From the NCBI RefSeq assembly GCF_000231445.1, contig NZ_AGFR01000003.1, forward strand, positions 124,001 through 188,000: a stretch of DNA of 64,000 nt, written 5' to 3'. The position numbers and the translations under genes are program-made. Positions 31,173-50,059 of this stretch are shown here, piece by piece. A model generated the notes under the pieces. The model ran no database searches. It was given only the letters and a program-made list of their open reading frames with translations, and had not been told where the DNA came from. The number at the start of each line of letters is the position of its first letter. Within the stretch, counting starts at the first letter, position 1. This DNA is from Commensalibacter intestini A911 (lineage in GTDB: Bacteria; Pseudomonadota; Alphaproteobacteria; Acetobacterales; Acetobacteraceae).

Positions 31173-32498
31173 TTATAAAAATGGTGACGGGTTAATGGTT
31201 CTTTCTCCACGTCGTAATTGAACGAATAATGTTGGACGCCCAGTTGTAGAGTTCCCCGACCATGCTGGCATTCGTCCAATCATAACACCTTTACTAACGC
31301 TTTGTCCGGCACCCACGTTGAGTTCTCCCATGCCTGCTAAAACAAAGCGATAGCTTTTTCCACAATTTAGGATAACCATTTGACCATATCCACGAAAAGA
31401 GCTGGCAAATTCAATTTGTCCGCTACATGGTGCACGCACAGAAGCCATTGATTGAGGCGCGTAGGTTGTGCCTTGTGCAGGGCCAGCATCGGTTGAGCTT
31501 CCCCACAAAGAAACAATACGTCCAGCAACAGGAGCTCCTTTACTGTTTGAGCTAAGTCCAGGCCCATCATTGCTTTGGGTAACGCTTCTAATTTCTTTTT
31601 TTGTGCTTTCTGCTTTTACTTGATTGCGAGCACGTTCGGCAGCAAGTGCTTCAGCTTGTAAGCGTCGCTCTGCTGCTTGTCTTGATGCTGTGATTTGTCG
31701 GATAGCATCATTAATACTGCTGGCTTTTGCAGCTGCTTTTGCAGCATCTTGTGAGACTTTAAATGCAGTAGAGGCAGAACGTTGTTGAATGGCTCTGGCT
31801 TCCTTGGTTGCTTTGGCTAGATCATCTCTTTGTTGGGTTTGATCTTTGTGTAAAGCTTCTAACTTACTGGTTTGATCTGCTAATTTAGCTTGTAATGCAT
31901 CTAACTCCACTTTGTGTTGTTTAATAACTTGAGCTTTTTGTTCTAACTGAGCAGATATTCCTTTAATGACTGATAATCCAATCGTAGAGCGAGATGAATT
32001 AATCGGAGCAGCAAGTAATGTATCTGTTGGATATAAAGAAAGTCGTTCAATCACAGGTAGGAATTTAGAGAACTGTTTTGATTCTTCTTGGAGTTTTTGA
32101 TTAAGAGCATCAGCTTGTTTTTTTAGTTGATCAATTTGTTCGGTTAATTGTGCTGATTTTGTTTCTGTGAGTTGCAGCGCTTGGGTTGCTTTTAGCATAT
32201 CACGATTGAGTTGATCTGCTTTTTTACGGTCGTCAGCTGCTCTTTTGACAGCACTATCTTTTTGTTGCTGTAAGTTTTTTAATTGGCTAGCAGCTTGTTG
32301 CTTTTGTGCTTGTAAACGTTGCTGAGCTTCTTTGGCTTGTTGCAAGGCTTCTTTAGCAGAATTTGTTTTCTCTGCTTTGACGGGATAGCCATTTAAAAAA
32401 AAGACAGAAGAGGAAAAGAAAAAGACGCAACTCCCCCTTAAAGCGATTTTTGATAATCGCTTTGACCAAAAAGGGGAGTATCGTAACGTCTCTTTCAG
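31173..32498 (-). CDS. envC: EnvC-like murein hydrolase activator (degenerate LytM), probable CTG start
   Basis: EnvC-type proteins activate amidases that split septal peptidoglycan. The product has a long periplasmic coiled coil (about residues 50-300, Gln/Lys/Ala rich) and a C-terminal LytM/M23 fold (about 330-441). Metal ligands are missing: the usual H-x-H/ELR motif reads LFVQLRRG, so it should bind rather than cut. The first ATG/GTG/TTG codon is a TTG at 32345 inside the coiled coil. The frame stays open for 51 codons upstream, encoding a basic stretch, a hydrophobic core (CVFFFSSSVFFL) and PVKA-E, a convincing signal peptide. It begins at CTG (32498) with GAGGA 4 bases before it, 12 bases after the gpmI stop. 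I annotate that start; it is inference. Confidence 0.75.
   Translation of the reverse strand: MKETLRYSPFWSKRLSKIALRGSCVFFFSSSVFFLNGYPVKAEKTNSAKEALQQAKEAQQRLQAQKQQAASQLKNLQQQKDSAVKRAADDRKKADQLNRDMLKATQALQLTETKSAQLTEQIDQLKKQADALNQKLQEESKQFSKFLPVIERLSLYPTDTLLAAPINSSRSTIGLSVIKGISAQLEQKAQVIKQHKVELDALQAKLADQTSKLEALHKDQTQQRDDLAKATKEARAIQQRSASTAFKVSQDAAKAAAKASSINDAIRQITASRQAAERRLQAEALAAERARNQVKAESTKKEIRSVTQSNDGPGLSSNSKGAPVAGRIVSLWGSSTDAGPAQGTTYAPQSMASVRAPCSGQIEFASSFRGYGQMVILNCGKSYRFVLAGMGELNVGAGQSVSKGVMIGRMPAWSGNSTTGRPTLFVQLRRGERTINPSPFL
32430..32479 (-). promoter_or_regulatory. Large hairpin over the 5' end of the EnvC-like gene
   Basis: There are nested perfect inverted repeats. The outer arms are ACTCCCC (32430-32436) and GGGGAGT (32473-32479); the inner arms are AAAGCGAT (32440-32447) and ATCGCTTT (32456-32463). 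On the minus strand the stem is followed within a few bases by a T-rich stretch, so it could act as an attenuator between gpmI and envC, or restrain translation of envC. If CTG is the start, the hairpin lies entirely in signal-peptide codons. Confidence 0.5.
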
Positions 32499-32502
32499 AA
32501 AA

Positions 32503-32507
32503 TCCTC
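32503..32507 (-). promoter_or_regulatory. Ribosome binding site supporting the CTG start of envC
   Basis: On the minus strand GAGGA is followed by TTTT and CTG. It is the only good Shine-Dalgarno match in the 160 bases upstream of the TTG at 32345, and it sits just after the gpmI stop, as expected for a coupled gene pair. Confidence 0.55.
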
Positions 32508-32510
32508 GTC

Positions 32511-34037
32511 TTATTCTTTAATGAGTGTTTTACCTGTCATTTCTTTAGGCTGAGGTAAATTCATTAAGTGTAATAGTGTTGGCGCTAGATCAGCCAATCT
32601 ACCATCACGTAATTGAACCCCAGAAACACCTTCTAAAATTACAGGCACTTTGTCCAAAGTATGTTGTGTGTGTGGTTCACCTGTTACGGGATCAACCATA
32701 ATTTCACAGTTACCATGATCTGCAGTAATGATCAAAGCACCATTTTGTTGTTTAATCGCATTAACGACTTCACCTAAGGCTTTATCGACAGCTTCAACAG
32801 CTTCGATGGCAGCTTTTAGTATTCCTGTATGACCGACCATGTCAGGATTTGCAAAGTTTACAACAATCAAATCATATTTTTTGCTGTTAATAGCTTCAAC
32901 AATTTTAGAGGTTAGCTCTGGTGCAGACATTGCAGGTTGCAAGTCATAAGTTGCAACTTTTGGAGAATTGACCAAAATACGATCTTCACCAGGGAAAGGC
33001 TCTTCACGTCCACCATTTAAGAAATATGTTACATGAGGATATTTTTCTGTTTCAGCAGAGCGGAGTTGTTTTAACCCAGCCTTAGAAACAACTTCACCTA
33101 AAACATTTTCAAAAGATTCAGGTGGGAATAAAACACCCATATATTTAGTAAGAACGTCACTATATTGCGTCATTCCGACAACGTCAGAGAATTTAACAAT
33201 TTTAGAGCGTTCAAATCCGTCAAAATCAGGGAATAAGAAAGCATCCATTAATTGGCGAATACGATCAGCACGGAAGTTGAAAGATAGAATTGCATCTCCA
33301 TCTTTCATGCCTTGATAATCTCCGACTACGGTTGGAAGGATGAATTCATCAGTGACTTTTTCTTTATAAGCACCTGTAATAACAGAAAGCGCATCAGCAC
33401 TATGTGGGCCTTTTGCTGAAATAAGTGCATCATAAGCTTTTTGTACGCGATCCCAACGTTTATCACGATCCATAGCGTAATAACGTCCTGAAACAGTAGC
33501 AATTCTCACTTCTTTAGGAAGCTCTTTTAATGCTTCTTCAACAAATCCTTTTGCTGATTCTGGAGGGGTGTCACGACCATCGGTAAAGACGTGTAAAGCA
33601 ACTTTAACGCCGGCTTGATGTAATAGTTTAGCTAAACCAACGGCATGTTCTTGATGAGCATGCACACCACCAGGAGAGAACAAACCAAGTAAATGGCAAG
33701 TTCCATCATTGCTTTTTAAAGTTTCAATGAACTTCACCATTAATGGATTTTTAATAATGCTGCCATCTTTGACAGCTTTTCCAATTTTAGGAAGTTCTTG
33801 CATGATGATGCGACCAGCACCAATATTCATATGGCCGACTTCAGAGTTCCCCATTTGTCCATCAGGTAAGCCAACATCTTCACCACTTGCATCTAACAAA
33901 GCATGAGGGCAATCTTTTAATAGACGATCTAAATTAGGAGTATTTGCGTTTGCAACCGCATTATTTTTATGTTCTGGATTATACCCGAAACCATCCAGAA
34001 TGGTTAACATCACGGGACGATATTTTTGTTGTGTCAT
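32511..34037 (-). CDS. gpmI: 2,3-bisphosphoglycerate-independent phosphoglycerate mutase
   Basis: This glycolytic/gluconeogenic enzyme interconverts 3- and 2-phosphoglycerate with two Mn ions and a phosphoserine intermediate. The 508-residue product has the alkaline-phosphatase-like metal site start TILDGFGYN, the catalytic Ser in GQMGNSEVGHMNIGAGR (about residue 62), FTDGRDTPP, and the C-terminal metal ligands in NFANPDMVGHTG and ITADHGNCE. Length is typical. It heads the gpmI-envC-ctpA-rppH cluster on the minus strand. Confidence 0.97.
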   Translation of the reverse strand: MTQQKYRPVMLTILDGFGYNPEHKNNAVANANTPNLDRLLKDCPHALLDASGEDVGLPDGQMGNSEVGHMNIGAGRIIMQELPKIGKAVKDGSIIKNPLMVKFIETLKSNDGTCHLLGLFSPGGVHAHQEHAVGLAKLLHQAGVKVALHVFTDGRDTPPESAKGFVEEALKELPKEVRIATVSGRYYAMDRDKRWDRVQKAYDALISAKGPHSADALSVITGAYKEKVTDEFILPTVVGDYQGMKDGDAILSFNFRADRIRQLMDAFLFPDFDGFERSKIVKFSDVVGMTQYSDVLTKYMGVLFPPESFENVLGEVVSKAGLKQLRSAETEKYPHVTYFLNGGREEPFPGEDRILVNSPKVATYDLQPAMSAPELTSKIVEAINSKKYDLIVVNFANPDMVGHTGILKAAIEAVEAVDKALGEVVNAIKQQNGALIITADHGNCEIMVDPVTGEPHTQHTLDKVPVILEGVSGVQLRDGRLADLAPTLLHLMNLPQPKEMTGKTLIKE

Positions 34038-42407: not shown

Positions 42408-42884
42408 TTAGGCACCATAAGTGATTTCAAGGATTTCATAAGAGCGGTCTCCGCCTGGTGCGGGAACGGAAACGGTGGCACCTTTTTCTTTTCCGATTAA
42501 GGCTTTTGCCAAAGGTGAGGAAATTGAAAGTAAACCAAGTTTAATATCAGCTTCATGCACACCGACAATTTGAAATTCTTTTTCTTTATCTGTTTCTTCG
42601 TCTACTAATAAAACTTTTGCACCGAATTTTACGGTATTTCCAGACAAAGTTGATGGATCAATGACTTGTGCAGAAGAAATGATTTGTTCAAGCTCTAAAA
42701 TACGTCCTTCAGTAAAAGATTGACGATCACGAGCTGCATCATATTCTGCGTTTTCAGATAAGTCACCATGGCTACGTGCTTCTGCAATTGCACGAATAAT
42801 TTCAGGGCGTTCTTTATCTTTAAGTCGGCGAAGCTCTTCTTCCAAACGTTGGAGCCCTTGAGCCGTCATTGGAAATTTTTGCAA
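42408..42884 (-). CDS. greA: Transcription elongation factor GreA
   Basis: GreA enters the RNA polymerase secondary channel and triggers cleavage of backtracked RNA. The 158-residue product has the N-terminal coiled coil (residues 8-75) with the acidic tip in HGDLSENAEYDAARD, and the C-terminal FKBP-like domain ending SYEILEITYG. There is no ATG at the expected N-terminus. TTG at 42884 gives the standard MQKFPMTAQG and has AAAGGA 8 bases upstream, whereas a TTG two codons earlier is only 2 bases from it. I therefore choose 42884. Confidence 0.95.
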   Translation of the reverse strand: MQKFPMTAQGLQRLEEELRRLKDKERPEIIRAIAEARSHGDLSENAEYDAARDRQSFTEGRILELEQIISSAQVIDPSTLSGNTVKFGAKVLLVDEETDKEKEFQIVGVHEADIKLGLLSISSPLAKALIGKEKGATVSVPAPGGDRSYEILEITYGA

Positions 42885-43055
42885 GATCAATATCCTTTAA
42901 AAAACGAACAAGCAGATACTATAGCGAATACAGCAATGATAATAAACATATTTCTATATAAACGAGGTTTTTTGTAAAAAATACTGAATTATTGTGATTT
43001 TCGAAAGAGAATTTATTATAAAGTAAATGTAAAGCTGAAAGCAGGATAAGGTGTT

Positions 43056-44114
43056 ATGATGTATAAAACAATGCTGATGAGTATGGCATTAGGAATGATG
43101 GTGGGAACGTCAGTTTTTGCTCAAGGGATTTCATTCGAACATAAAGATTGGCAAATTAATTGTGATAATACACGCACATGTCGTGCTGCGGGCTACTCGC
43201 CTGAGGATGATGCTAATCGTGTGACGGTTTTACTTACCCGCAAAGCGGGTAAAGGGCAGGAGGTTTCCGCATTAGTGCAATTGTCTGATATAGCAAATGA
43301 TAATGAGAAAAAGGTTGTTTTACCTGATAAAATGATTTTGAAAATTGGAGATCAATCTTATGGAGATATTCAATTACCTTCTGTTAAAGACTCAGATGAT
43401 GATTTGCCCTCAGTTCTTTTAACAGCAGCACAAACAAAAGCATTGCTTCATGCACTGAAAGGAACTGCTAAGATTTCATTTGTTGGAGGAAATCAAGAGT
43501 GGGTTTTACCAGGAAATGGGGCTTCTGCAGTTTTACTCAAAATGGATGCTGAGCAAGGGCGGGTTGGAACACCTTCTGCATTGATCAAACAAGGAAATAA
43601 ATCAGAAGATAGCGTCTTACCAGCATTGCCTACGCCAGTTATTTATCAAAAACTCTTACCTAAAGGTGATGTGAAGGTTTGGCAATCAAAAATAGACTGG
43701 GTGTTACTTCAGAAAGAGTTGGTTAAAATTAAGGGAGATTATTGTGATGCATTAGAAAATTCTGATGCTAGCTTCGAACCTAAAGTAGTGGAAGTGCTCA
43801 CATATAATCGTTTATTAATCACTGGGTTCTGCTCATCTGGAGCTTATCATACGAACTATGGATATTGGATTATTCACCAAGAGCAACCATATCAACCAAA
43901 ATTGATTACGATGATAGGTGAAGATGAAATGGAAGATAATACTATTGTGTTTCGTATGAAAGAAGATGTGTTAGGAGACTGTTGGTCGCACCAATCTTGG
44001 GTTTGGAATGGAAAGGATTTTGTTCAAGCTTCTAACATTCCCTCTGCAATGTGTCGTATGATTGCGATGGGTGGTGCGTGGGATCTTCCTACTTATGTAT
44101 CAATAGTCAAATAG
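43056..44114 (+). CDS. DUF1176 domain secreted protein
   Basis: The 352-residue product has a signal peptide (cleavage near VFAQG, about residue 23). The rest matches the DUF1176 pattern: KDWQINCDNTRTCRAAGY near the mature N-terminus, VTVLLTRKAGKG, a central LPALPTP segment, and conserved cysteines through to SAMCRMIAMGGAWDLP. It is predicted periplasmic, and the family's function is unknown. Two ATG codons are adjacent and either may be used after AAGGTG. The ubiC remnant begins 9 bp after its stop, so the two were probably one transcript. Confidence 0.82.
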   Translation: MMYKTMLMSMALGMMVGTSVFAQGISFEHKDWQINCDNTRTCRAAGYSPEDDANRVTVLLTRKAGKGQEVSALVQLSDIANDNEKKVVLPDKMILKIGDQSYGDIQLPSVKDSDDDLPSVLLTAAQTKALLHALKGTAKISFVGGNQEWVLPGNGASAVLLKMDAEQGRVGTPSALIKQGNKSEDSVLPALPTPVIYQKLLPKGDVKVWQSKIDWVLLQKELVKIKGDYCDALENSDASFEPKVVEVLTYNRLLITGFCSSGAYHTNYGYWIIHQEQPYQPKLITMIGEDEMEDNTIVFRMKEDVLGDCWSHQSWVWNGKDFVQASNIPSAMCRMIAMGGAWDLPTYVSIVK

Positions 44115-44123
44115 TTTATACAC

Positions 44124-44648
44124 ATGGATTCTTGTCTATTTAATTGGCAGAAATGTCATAGATTACAAAAACAACTTTCTGAGCTAGAGATAGATTGGCT
44201 ATTTGGTGAAGGGTCTTTGACGCAACGACTAACATTGCTTAGTAATCATCATTTTTCTTTAGCAGTTCTCTCGGAAAAAGAGACATATCTTAGAGAAGAT
44301 GAATATGTATATTTAAATATTGCTTCCTCACGAAAAGAACGGGTGAGGGAGGTTGTTTTAAAAGGGCATAATGAACCTTGGGTTTATGCTCGTAGTGTCA
44401 TTATCCCTGATGATAAAACTTCTGATACATTAATAGATATTGGCCAGAAACCGCTTGGGGCTATCTTATTTACCAGTAACCATTTTCAAAGGTCAGAATT
44501 AGAAGCTGCATCCTATCCAATCCATTTGATGCCATCATTATATCGTTATGACAATTTATAGGCAAGACGTTCTTGTTTTACAAGCCATCAACAAAAAATA
44601 CTTGTACAAGAAATATTCTTGCCACAATTTTGGTCTCAAACAAAATAG
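44124..44648 (+). pseudogene. ubiC: Chorismate-pyruvate lyase, interrupted by an in-frame TAG
   Basis: UbiC makes 4-hydroxybenzoate and pyruvate from chorismate, the first committed step of ubiquinone synthesis. Residues 1-145 match the family: EGSLTQRL, VREVVLKGHNEPWVYARSVI and IGQKPLGAILFTSNHF. A TAG stop at 44559-44561 then ends the frame, but the same frame continues for 28 codons with the missing C-terminus (ARRS, then VQEIFLP) to TAG at 44646. The stop replaces the Trp of the conserved (W)xRRS motif, one base change from TGG. The short product lacks the catalytic Glu of the ELFLP-like motif, so it should be inactive unless the amber codon is read through. A sequencing error is the main alternative. 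Confidence 0.85.
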
Positions 44649-44661
44649 ATATCTGGTTGAA

Positions 44662-45177
44662 TTACATTGCTAGCTTTAAATGTTCGCGAGCTTCTTTTGA
44701 GAGTTCGCTAGATGGGCACGCAATGATGGTTTCATCATCAACACCACAATCTTCAATAAATGTAATTCTTGCAAATTCGTCTACGATTTCAATTGGGTAA
44801 GTTGGACCAGCTTCGCGATATAGTTCGATCAACGGGATTGTATCATTGATAGCATGAGCAGCTTTTTCAGGGTGTTTAATAATCCAGTGTGGGAAAAATA
44901 AAGTCCCTTGGTAACAATGATCGACCAAATTAATAATAATACTGACGTTTGTTCCAGTTCTTTCAGTCCATGATAATTTACAGATATCTTTGGAAATTAG
45001 TGCCATATAAACATGTTGGTTTTTAATCCAACGATCGCCAATAACGCCATGATGAACGCGATAATCAACTCGGCCTGTATTTTTTATGTAAAGTTCATAA
45101 CTCCAGCCACTATTATAAGTAAATACAAAGCGTTTACCTATAAATTTTGAAAGATCATTTTTATCAAAGCCAAACAT
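44662..45177 (-). CDS. padC: Phenolic acid decarboxylase
   Basis: PadC decarboxylates p-coumaric, ferulic and caffeic acids to vinyl phenols, detoxifying plant phenolics without cofactors. The 171-residue product covers the whole lipocalin-like barrel and resembles enterobacterial enzymes: NGWxYE-like SGWSYELYIKN, DYRVHHGVIGDRW, SWTERTGT, FFPHWI, EFARITF. The conserved Arg (in DRW) and Glu (in WTE) are present, but the first Tyr of the Y-T-Y pair is Phe (F19-T-Y21). AAGGAAA lies before the ATG. No padR-type regulator is adjacent. It converges on the broken ubiC 13 bp away. Horizontal acquisition is plausible, because this family is scattered among bacteria. Confidence 0.88.
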   Translation of the reverse strand: MFGFDKNDLSKFIGKRFVFTYNSGWSYELYIKNTGRVDYRVHHGVIGDRWIKNQHVYMALISKDICKLSWTERTGTNVSIIINLVDHCYQGTLFFPHWIIKHPEKAAHAINDTIPLIELYREAGPTYPIEIVDEFARITFIEDCGVDDETIIACPSSELSKEAREHLKLAM

Positions 45178-45427: not shown

Positions 45428-48400
45428 TTAATGTCTAAAGTAAGATTGTAATGGAGCAACGTCTGATTGCCCTTCACGTAATGCAGAGATCGCATGAACG
45501 GCAGCAATCGCACCAGCCATTGTGGTATAATAAGGGATACCATGTGTTAATGCAGAGTGACGAATATCAAAACTATCTGCAGCTGCTTGCGCACCTTGGA
45601 CAGTGTTAATAATCAACTGAACTTCTCCAGAAAGAATAGCATCAATACAGTGAGGGCGTCCTTCTAGCACTTTATTAACAACTTTAGCTTCAATGCCTGC
45701 TTGCTTTAATGTTTCAGCAGTGCCTCTGGTTGCTAAAATGGTAAAGCCCATTTCAGTTAATTTACGTCCTAATGAAGGTAAAGAAACACGATCATTTTGG
45801 CGCACAGAAAGGAAAACATTGCCTGATAAAGGTAAGCTTACACCAGCTCCTAATTGTGATTTTGCAAACGCGCGTTCAAAGGAAGTATCAATGCCCATGA
45901 CTTCACCTGTAGAGCGCATTTCTGGACCTAAGATAATATCAACATTTGGGAAACGTGCGAATGGGAAGACGGCTTCTTTAACAGCAACGTGACCAGAAAT
46001 TGAACGTTCGGTAAGAGCGAAAGATTTTAATTTTTCGCCAGCCATTACGCGAGCCCCAATTTTTGCGACAGGAACGCCTGTTGCTTTTGCCACAAAAGGA
46101 ACTGTTCTAGATGCGCGAGGATTGACCTCTAAAATAAAGATCTCATTATTTTTAATCGCATATTGAACGTTCATTAACCCAACAATACCCAATGCTTTGG
46201 CTAAGGTTGAAGTTTGTGCTTTGAGTTCCGTTACAATGGCAGGCGATAACGTATAGGGTGGGATTGAACATGCACTGTCACCAGAGTGAATACCTGCTTG
46301 CTCAATATGTTCCATAACCCCAGCAACATAGACATCTTCGCCATCAGCAACACAATCAACATCTGTTTCAATTGCGTCGCTTAAATATTGATCAATCAAT
46401 AATGGGCCAGAAGTTACGTCAATACCAGCTGATTGTAGAACTTCACGCAGATAACGATGTAAGCTTGGTTTATCGTAAACGATTTCCATTGCGCGACCAC
46501 CTAAAACATAAGATGGACGAATAACAACAGGATATCCAATTTTTTCTGCAATTTGTTCAGCTTCATCACCGTTGCGAGCAATTCCATTGGAAGGCTGGCG
46601 TAGGCCAAGTTTTTGTAACAATACTTGGAAACGTTCGCGATCTTCAGCTAAATCAATAGCATCAGCAGGGGTGCCAAGTAATGGAATGCCAGCTTCCTCC
46701 AATGCTTTGGAAAGTTTTAATGGTGTTTGACCACCATATTGAACGATACATCCTTTAACTTTGCCGTTTTGTTGTTCACGACGGATTAAAGAAATGACAT
46801 CTTCATTGGTTAATGGCTCGAAATACAAACGGTCAGAAGTATCATAGTCTGTTGAAACAGTTTCTGGGTTACAATTAACCATGATGGTTTCGTAACCAGC
46901 TTCTCTAAGTGCATAAGAGGCATGAACACAGCAATAATCGAACTCAATCCCTTGTCCAATACGGTTTGGCCCACCACCTAAGATGATGATTTTTTCACGA
47001 TCTGTAGGGTTGCTTTCACAAACAGGAGTATTAAAGCTGCCTTCATATGTTGAGTACATATATGAAGTCGAAGATGCGAACTCACCTGCACAGGTATCGA
47101 TACGTCTGTAAACAGCATGAACGTCCAAGCTGTCACGTAATTGGGTGACATCAGCTTCGGTTGTGTTTGTTAATACGGCAAGTTGTTTATCAGAGAAGCC
47201 AAGTGCTTTGATCGCTCTGAGCTGGTAAGTATCTTTTGGTAAACCATGTGCTTTTAAATCATTTTCAGTTTGAATGATTTTTTCTAGTTCACGTAGGAAC
47301 CAAAAATCAAAACGGCAAGCTTCATGAATGCGTTCCAAAGATAATCCTGCACGGATTGCTTGGGCTGCCATTAAAATACGATTTGGACGAGGTTGAGAAA
47401 GTGCTGCACGGAATGCATCTTCATCACCATCCCCGGGGATTTCAACAGGATCCAATCCAGCAAGACCGATTTCCATAGAGCGAAGCCCTTTTTGTAAAGC
47501 TTCTGGGAAGCTACGTCCAATAGCCATTGCTTCACCAACAGATTTCATGCTGGTGCTGAGAAGAGCAGGGGTTCCAGGGAATTTTTCGAATGTAAAGCGA
47601 GGGATTTTAATAACTACATAATCAATCGTAGGTTCGAATGATGCTGGTGTTGTTTTGGTAATATCGTTCTTTAATTCGTCTAACGTATAACCAACCGCTA
47701 ATTTTGCAGCAATTTTAGCAATTGGGAAACCGGTTGCTTTGGAAGCAAGAGCTGATGAGCGAGAAACACGAGGGTTCATTTCGATGACAACCATACGGCC
47801 ATCAACAGGGTTTAAGCCAAATTGTACGTTTGATCCGCCTGTATCTACACCAATTGCTCGTAAACATGCAATGGAGGCATCACGCATCCGTTGATATTCT
47901 TTATCTGTTAAGGTTAATGCAGGAGCAACCGTGATTGAATCGCCTGTATGAATTCCCATCGGATCAATATTTTCGATCGAACAAATAATGATACAGTTAT
48001 CTGCACTGTCGCGGACAACTTCCATTTCATATTCTTTCCAACCCAAAATGCTTTCTTCAATAAGCACTTCTGTTGTTGGTGACGCGTCTAATCCAGAGGT
48101 AACAATTTGCTCAAATTCATCTTTGTTATAAGCAATACCGCCACCAGAACCACCTAACGTAAAAGATGGACGAATAACAGCTGGAAGCCCTGTGAATTTT
48201 AAAGCTTCTCTAGCTTCTTCTAGGGTATGAGCGATTGTGCTGCGTGGGCTTTCAATGCCGATTTTTTCCATGGTTTCACGGAATTTTAAACGATCTTCAG
48301 CACGATCAATGACGTCTGCTTTTGCGCCGATCAGTTCGACATTATGCTTTTGTAAGAAACCAGATTTATCCAATGCCATCGCTGTATTTAAAGCAGTTTG

Positions 48401-48676
48401 CCCACCCATTGTTGGTAGAATTGCATCAGGTTTTTCTTTAAGAATAATTTTTTCAACGGTTTCTGGGGTGATTGGCTCAATATAAGTTGCATCGGCCATA
48501 TCTGGATCTGTCATGATTGTGGCTGGGTTAGAGTTAACCAAAATCACGCGATAGCCTTCTTCTCTCAACGCTTTACACGCTTGAGCACCAGAATAATCGA
48601 ATTCACATGCCTGACCGATCACAATCGGTCCAGCACCAATAATCATAATAGAGGATATGTCTGTCCGTTTAGGCAT
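45428..48676 (-). CDS. carB: Carbamoyl-phosphate synthase large subunit
   Basis: CarB makes carbamoyl phosphate for arginine and pyrimidines from bicarbonate, ammonia and two ATP. The 1082-residue product has two ATP-grasp halves, each starting with a nucleotide-binding motif ([20 protein letters not shown] and [20 protein letters not shown]), an oligomerisation domain between them (about residues 405-555), and a C-terminal MGS-like allosteric domain (about 940-1075). It follows carA by 9 bp and is co-transcribed. Length and motifs are standard. Confidence 0.98.
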
Positions 48677-48685
48677 AGGAACACC

Positions 48686-50059
48686 TTATTGTTTTTTGTG
48701 AGGAGAATGTTGATCCATTAATTCCGCAAAGCGTTGGAATAAATAATGGCTATCGGTTGGGCCAGGGCTGGCTTCTGGATGGTATTGCACAGAGAATGCA
48801 GGATACTTGTCCGAAGCAATCCCTTCGTTTGATCCATCAAATAAATTAATATGAGTTGCATGCGCATCAGAAGGAAGGCTGTTAGGATCCACAGCAAAGC
48901 CATGATTTTGACTGGTGATTTCAACTTTTCCTGTTTTTAGATCTTTTACAGGTTGGTTTGCCCCACGATGTCCTTGTTCTAATTTGTAGGTTTTACCACC
49001 TAAAGCATGGGCTAATAGTTGATGTCCAAGGCAAATACCAAAAATAGGAATTCTTTTTTCAAGAAGTTCTTTTAACACAGGAACTGTATAATGAGTTGTT
49101 GCTGCAGGATCTGCAGGGCCATTGGATAAGAAAACACCATCAGGATTATGACTAAGAATTTCTTCAGCAGAGGTAGTGGCTGGTACAACGGTAAGGTTAC
49201 AACCAACTTCAATTAGGTTGCGGAAAATATTATATTTTGCACCATAATCAATTGCAACGACATTATATGTTTTGCTAGGTTTGGGAGATGTTTCGTCGCC
49301 CCAATGCCAAACGCCATCTTTCCATTGGTGTGGTTTTGCGCAAGTGACTTCCTTGGCTAAATCCATTCCTTGCAATCCAGGCCATGCTTTTACTTTTGCT
49401 TGTAAAGCATCAATGTCAAAGATGCCATCTTCAGGGAAGTATAATAAAGCACTTTGAGGGCCGTGGTCGCGGATGCGTAAGGTTAATGTGCGTGTATCAA
49501 TGCCGCAAATACCTGTAACATTTTGTTCTTTCAACCAATTTTGCAAAGATTCACTTGAACGCCAATTTCCAGGCTCAGTGACTTGTTGTTTAACAATTAA
49601 GCCTTTTGCAACAATTTTATTGTCTTCATTATCATCAATATTTGTGCCAACATTTCCGATGTGAGGAAAAGTAAAAGTAATTAATTGTCCAGCAAAAGAA
49701 GGATCAGTTAAAGTTTCTTGGTATCCCGTCATGCTGGTTGAAAAGCAGATTTCTCCAATGGCAAGATTGTTTTTTGAAGAATATGCACCAAATCCAATTC
49801 CCCATAAAATAGTACCGTCCTCCAGAAGAAGAACGGCATTTGCACCTGCTGGGCAGGTATGAGGAGTCGAATCGTTAATTTCGTTTGGTTGTAAATCAGA
49901 CAATGTTAGACCCGTTTCTTGAATAATAGTTGCCCAATGTTTGGATGGAATGGCACGGGCTTGTTTCCATTTGCGGATGGCCTCGGTGCTTACTTTTGTG
50001 ATGCGGGCGGCTTGTTCAATCCCCCCAAGGCGAGAAATAATTGTATCAATATCCATCAT
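48686..50059 (-). CDS. carA: Carbamoyl-phosphate synthase small subunit with N-terminal HTH domain
   Basis: CarA hydrolyses glutamine and channels ammonia to CarB. Residues about 70-450 are a complete CarA: GANAVLLLEDGTILWGIGFG, FSTSMTGYQETLTDPS, the catalytic Cys in GICLGHQLLAHALGG (about residue 343) and VQYHPEASPGP with the His/Glu pair. The first about 60 residues are an extra Cro/YdaS-like helix-turn-helix domain (RLGGIEQAARI, STEAIRKWKQARAIPSKHW), joined by a short polar linker. The protein is therefore 457 residues rather than about 380. An in-frame TTG at the linker (in TLSDL) has no ribosome site, so separate expression is unlikely. I believe NCBI names such a small domain carph-isopro. 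Any DNA-binding role is inference. Confidence 0.95.
   Translation of the reverse strand: MMDIDTIISRLGGIEQAARITKVSTEAIRKWKQARAIPSKHWATIIQETGLTLSDLQPNEINDSTPHTCPAGANAVLLLEDGTILWGIGFGAYSSKNNLAIGEICFSTSMTGYQETLTDPSFAGQLITFTFPHIGNVGTNIDDNEDNKIVAKGLIVKQQVTEPGNWRSSESLQNWLKEQNVTGICGIDTRTLTLRIRDHGPQSALLYFPEDGIFDIDALQAKVKAWPGLQGMDLAKEVTCAKPHQWKDGVWHWGDETSPKPSKTYNVVAIDYGAKYNIFRNLIEVGCNLTVVPATTSAEEILSHNPDGVFLSNGPADPAATTHYTVPVLKELLEKRIPIFGICLGHQLLAHALGGKTYKLEQGHRGANQPVKDLKTGKVEITSQNHGFAVDPNSLPSDAHATHINLFDGSNEGIASDKYPAFSVQYHPEASPGPTDSHYLFQRFAELMDQHSPHKKQ

Follow-up and report, generated by a model that had tools for sequence, protein, structure and literature searches.

The ubiC locus and its internal TAG codon

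The window analysed here, a stretch of 64,000 nucleotides from the genome of Commensalibacter intestini A911 (124001-188000 of its contig), carries a gene for a UbiC-like chorismate lyase that is interrupted by a stop codon. The ubiC ORF (44124..44561, plus strand) is closed after 145 codons by an in-frame TAG at 44559-44561, and the same frame continues downstream of this TAG for 28 codons (44562-44645; ARRSCFTSHQQKILVQEIFLPQFWSQTK) before it meets a second TAG at 44646-44648. The 145-codon 5' part matches the Pfam Chor_lyase profile PF04345 with an E value of 5.1e-22 over positions 7-133 of 168. The tail (44562..44648 with its stop, plus strand), which contains ARRS and VQEIFLP, matches positions 139-166 of the same profile with an E value of 0.0011 and 19.1 bits, which is below the cut-off of 23.6 bits. 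A search of the whole genome (2,454,778 bases in the 26 contigs of a draft assembly) merges the two parts into a single match of 103.5 bits (cut-off 23.6) over positions 7-166 of 168 with one internal TAG, so that the window gene covers the family profile along its length, across the stop. The ORF reading and the profile agree on what an earlier note, made from the letters of the sequence, had described, namely a TAG after residue 145 and a frame that stays open for 28 more codons of UbiC up to a second TAG.

The gene upstream (43056..44114, plus strand) encodes a DUF1176 protein (PF06674, E 5.5e-66) and ends with a TAG nine bases before the ATG of ubiC. On the other side, a padC-like gene for a phenolic acid decarboxylase (44662..45177, minus strand; PF05870, E 2.2e-64) is convergent with ubiC. 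The borders of the block are formed by two ORFs that we take, from their sequences, to be greA on the left (42408..42890, minus strand) and carB on the right (45428..48676, minus strand). The gene order greA-DUF1176-ubiC-padC-carB is common to the window and all four relatives examined (G007, G004, G006 and G002). The DUF1176, UbiC and PadC proteins of the window share 42-64% identity with those of the congeners with which they were compared, and the products of greA, ilvA, carA and carB are 85-96% identical to those of the same four relatives; the DUF1176-ubiC-padC block (43056-45177) is far less conserved than its flanks. The padC-like gene beside ubiC makes two adjacent genes of phenolic acid chemistry. 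Further to the right, the carA-like protein (48686-50059, minus strand) has about 75 residues ahead of its CPSase domain with a faint likeness to DNA-binding proteins of the Cro/YdaS type (E 0.0007 and 0.0022, both under the Pfam cut-offs), and this extension is conserved in C. papalotli.

The window ubiC was aligned with seven intact copies from congeners, two of which are 99% alike; an eighth congener, G003, has no intact copy. The column of the stop is Trp in all seven, and the tail is present in all seven. The amber codon stands at a conserved Trp position as the note had claimed, and the comparison with close relatives that it had called for reveals no shorter functional UbiC in the genus, since every intact copy has the segment. 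What is found is a premature stop relative to intact orthologues at the same locus (Trp in 7/7; gene order shared with the four relatives examined), as is expected of a nonsense pseudogene.

Compared with the E. coli-type UbiC (PDB 1jd3, 1fw9; PF04345), the window protein is only a distant relative, its N-terminal part scoring 54.3 bits against an NCBIfam equivalog cut-off of 191 bits. The two are alike in the profile match, which spans the stop of the window gene, and in having counterparts of the LWGRRS and ELFLP segments; they differ in that the internal TAG takes the last 28 codons of the window gene out of normal translation. When the alignment was made through the congener C. papalotli, its LWARRS aligned with LWGRRS of the solved E. 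coli UbiC and its VQEIFLP with the E. coli segment whose final ELFLP reaches residue 159, so that the Glu is residue 155. The tail can be aligned in this way up to residue 159, Glu155 included. We take Glu155 to be the catalytic residue of E. coli UbiC. The residue aligned with it falls 3' of the TAG and is absent from the 145-residue translated product, and the note was right to place the segment of the catalytic Glu downstream of the stop. As the 28 tail codons hold neither ATG nor GTG, and their sole TTG lies near the end with eight codons after it, a restart that makes a separate tail peptide is unlikely.

Constraint, surrounding sequence and a decayed copy in a congener

Of the residues invariant in the genus, the window ubiC retains 42 of 44 upstream of the stop and all 10 downstream of it; the two exceptions are an Ile replaced by Val and an Ile replaced by Leu. 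Leave-one-out controls on the intact copies gave 42 of 42-47 kept before the stop column and 10 of 10-11 after it. Identity of the window UbiC to its relatives is 50-68% after the stop and 41-49% before it; that is, the part after the stop is not below the part before it. We argue that the stop is young because the genus-invariant residues have been retained on both sides of it.

The age of the stop was bounded by a rough Poisson calculation, in which the 54 invariant codons supply 126.7 nonsynonymous sites. At fourfold sites of carB, carA and ilvA, the window and its three nearest relatives are 0.85-0.88 changes per site apart, and the branch was accordingly set at about 0.43. If neither of the two residue changes is counted, loss of constraint over more than 6% of that branch is rejected at 95%; if both are, the limit rises to 12%. 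With a fourfold-site branch of 0.30 the 95% bounds on the unconstrained share become 8% and 17%. A quick tree of UbiC gave no sign of faster evolution of the window ubiC before the stop, its end branch being 0.37 and those of the other genus rows ranging from 0.00 to 0.40, with the C. melissae pair on a stem of 0.75. Protein identities are in agreement with the tree that ubiC evolution has not accelerated. The retained residues and the branch bound indicate constraint until very recently, as the note had supposed in suggesting that the gene was disabled very recently. A bound of this kind does not discriminate between a recent mutation, an assembly error and read-through, all of which it fits.

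How common internal stops are in the surrounding sequence was judged by comparing the window with the same four congeners, to which 46 (G007), 44 (G004), 43 (G006) and 44 (G002) genes were matched. Per relative, 53.6-56.6 kb of matched sequence was scanned for internal stops; genes merely ending early would escape such a scan. In all four comparisons, ubiC alone is interrupted by a stop within the body of the gene. Five further matches were flagged, none of which we accept as an interrupted gene. In four of these (the RNase HII-like gene at 13.0 kb, those at 12.4 kb and 10.9 kb, and carA) the stop precedes the usual start and lies in a 5' extension. The fifth is an ORF on the plus strand (32245-32550) that overlaps the ends of two longer ORFs on the minus strand and is probably no gene. 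As ubiC alone has a stop in its body among the matched genes, the sequence does not look generally bad; a single wrong base at the TAG remains compatible with such clean surroundings and is the main rival to a true mutation.

In G003, carB and greA are separated by 725 bases (L156, 10425-11149). This gap still contains ubiC at almost its full length, but wrecked by several stops and by a frame change that splits it over two frames, and a search there with the DUF1176 and PadC proteins of C. papalotli found no match to either. G003 keeps the 4-hydroxybenzoate octaprenyltransferase UbiA (TIGR01474, 319.4 bits) as well as UbiG, and both are also found in the genome of the window. The two cases are alike in that ubiC is lost at the same slot with UbiA and UbiG retained, and differ in that G003 has several stops, a frame change and no detected DUF1176 or PadC gene, whereas the window has a single stop between whole neighbours. 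ubiC has thus already been lost once in the genus with these later steps retained, and the window looks like a second, fresh case, giving two of nine genomes.

Decoding of the TAG codon and competing explanations

That the amber codon may be suppressed or read through was one of the two possibilities raised by the note. We found no CTA anticodon among the 41 tRNAs of the genome, for all of which ARAGORN gave an anticodon, after 150 of the 184 first-look candidates had been scored; Ile-GAT and Ala-TGC are absent from the 41, so that the assembly may lack a small part of the genome. When tRNAs with a CUA anticodon were sought by a loose pattern, five matches came up, in three Glu, one Leu and one Arg tRNA genes, none of them at the anticodon. 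Release factor 1 is present (487.8 bits, cut-off 423.25), and TAG terminates 8 of the 46 window ORFs supported by relatives (the truncated ubiC possibly counted), besides ending the upstream DUF1176 gene and serving as the second stop of ubiC. On tRNAs, RF1 and TAG use, we reject an amber suppressor or recoding within the reach of this tRNA search. Read-through helped by a downstream hairpin, by which some full-length UbiC would still be made, is a separate matter. It would account for a fully constrained tail, and a hairpin is indeed predicted directly 3' of the amber codon (44562..44622, plus strand): the fold of the 87 bases that follow the stop has an energy of -19.1 kcal/mol and a z score of -4.26, with none of 200 shuffles as stable. 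Our own shuffles gave a z score of -3.95, a level equalled by 5-7 of 500 random coding 87-mers taken from long ORFs of the window (5 at z of -4.0 or below, 7 at -3.5 or below), and in raw energy 77 of the 500 equal or exceed its stability. For the corresponding segments of the seven relatives this fold is not predicted. In read-through signals the stem usually lies further from the stop than here, where it starts at the first base after it. The predicted hairpin is probably incidental and leaves a small opening for read-through, which we consider very unlikely.

It is slightly more improbable still that the 145-residue protein is itself a working enzyme or has another job. Its retention of 42 of 44 genus-invariant positions would be expected of a functional protein, but the tail, which carries the counterpart of Glu155 in the alignment, is present in all seven intact congeners, and the near absence of start codons speaks against its being supplied as a separate peptide. 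A more serious objection to a real mutation is that the stop could be a base error in the 26-contig draft assembly, with ubiC intact in the living strain. The gene is otherwise undamaged, and the youth of the stop is also how an error would look. Of the 1557 single-base changes possible in the 173 sense codons, 92 make a stop, and at an error rate near 1e-5 we estimate about one such false stop per genome, although the true rate may differ. Against an error, no other gene body among the 43-46 genes matched per relative has an internal stop, and ubiC was truly lost in G003. On balance we regard an assembly error as unlikely, though by far the strongest of the rivals, and a very recent nonsense mutation that inactivated ubiC in this Commensalibacter strain as the probable explanation. 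Of the two possibilities in the note, the recent loss by a TGG-to-TAG change is favoured by the conservation of the gene, and suppression is disfavoured by the lack of a CUA tRNA among those found and the presence of RF1.

If ubiC was inactivated by a recent nonsense mutation, a single TAG would have arisen in frame at an otherwise Trp column, the rest of the gene, tail included, being as conserved as in intact copies. Translation would end at the TAG, and the 145-residue product would lack the segment bearing the catalytic glutamate and hence be inactive. The cell would tolerate the loss by obtaining 4-hydroxybenzoate or another ring precursor from elsewhere; candidate sources are a rich medium, the diet, or whatever route apparently serves most Acetobacteraceae. 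That loss is tolerated in the genus follows from G003, where UbiA and UbiG persist although the ubiC at this locus has decayed. Ordinary young nonsense pseudogenes of host-associated bacteria likewise have one stop in a constrained gene of a small AT-rich genome, and the window ubiC differs from them solely in the choice of gene. Taken alone, the interrupted ubiC is most likely a loss-of-function allele of recent origin in a single bacterium of the insect gut.

UbiC in the family and the supply of 4-hydroxybenzoate

In a profile survey, which very divergent UbiC proteins may escape, UbiC was matched in only 5 of 150 sampled Acetobacteraceae genomes, the genome of the window included, and four of these matches are over the cut-off. 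Three of the five are Commensalibacter, and G021 is the only other genome over the cut-off. Across the class, 7 of 385 genomes were matched (own included), five over the cut-off, among them three Commensalibacter.

The note had proposed a search for a second ubiC or a xanB2-like gene, and neither was found in the genome: PF04345 gives one place, and the match of PF01947 is the same gene. PF21168 (FkbO/Hyg5-like N domain), which we take to be the mark of XanB2-like chorismatases, matched none of the nine Commensalibacter genomes. The model is able to find members, with 1 of 60 genomes matched in all and 0 of 14 control genomes, and it was the N domain only that was searched. As a replacement, a second chorismate lyase is rejected within the reach of these three profiles, which an unrelated or very divergent enzyme would escape. 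The note had further held that the strain, if the stop is real, needs another route to 4-hydroxybenzoate, and that this would be telling for a host-associated ubiquinone user. This goes too far; because UbiC is rare in Acetobacteraceae and the ubiC of G003 has already long decayed, the source of 4-hydroxybenzoate is a family-wide question.

Published work, as far as the portions consulted go, describes the same gap elsewhere. Acetic acid bacteria have ubiquinone-9 or -10 despite the rarity of UbiC; in passages of PMC6151773, Q-10 is reported in Asaia from a medium called minimal yet containing 0.05% yeast extract. Passages of PMC12423496 describe Hyphomicrobium denitrificans as having neither UbiC nor XanB2, with a source of 4-hydroxybenzoate that the authors cannot explain, and mention 4-aminobenzoate as a further substrate of UbiA; a part of PMC5615194 calls the source in bacteria without UbiC open more generally. 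For Cereibacter azotoformans, in which ubiC is not annotated, an excerpt of PMC12024278 proposes a homologue of the XanB2-like ArcB. According to a section of PMC6747719, deletion of ubiC leaves E. coli deficient in ubiquinone, and 4-hydroxybenzoate rescues the mutant. The type strain of C. intestini was grown with 10 g/l yeast extract, as a passage of PMC10149009 states, and such a medium could hide a need for 4-hydroxybenzoate; the same paper mentions genomes from two C. intestini isolates. Titles and abstracts of the literature searched hold no earlier report of ubiC loss in Commensalibacter, and the main text of PMC10149009 contains no words beginning ubiC, ubiquinone or chorismate.

We tentatively propose that Commensalibacter with a broken ubiC (this strain and G003) still make ubiquinone via the ring-precursor source apparently used by most Acetobacteraceae and many other Alphaproteobacteria, and that UbiC in the genus is a redundant extra being lost again; we see this as plausible, though somewhat short of probable. 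If true, that source would be a chorismate-to-4-hydroxybenzoate enzyme not yet known, or another ring precursor. The genus offers a natural experiment, since its species combine ubiA and ubiG with a ubiC that is intact in some, probably newly broken in one and long decayed in another. It may thereby help to trace how 4-hydroxybenzoate is made in this family, in which genes for UbiC and XanB2-like proteins were rarely found.

As to where the UbiC of the genus came from, relatives were fetched with patterns made from it, which gave four Commensalibacter records and 44 others (loci L089-L132; G021 is L049), from a collection in which the genome of the window may be absent. A scan of viral sequences found no relative. 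We take the fetched relatives from outside the genus, by their record titles, to be gammaproteobacteria. In a quick tree, the Commensalibacter proteins form one group (SH-aLRT 96) on a long branch that lies among sequences titled with names of gammaproteobacteria; the tree carries a warning of long branches that meet, the genus group being at one of them, and the UbiC of G021 is itself very long-branched and very divergent. As the patterns of the scan came from the genus, this placement gives no more than a hint that ubiC may have been acquired by Commensalibacter.
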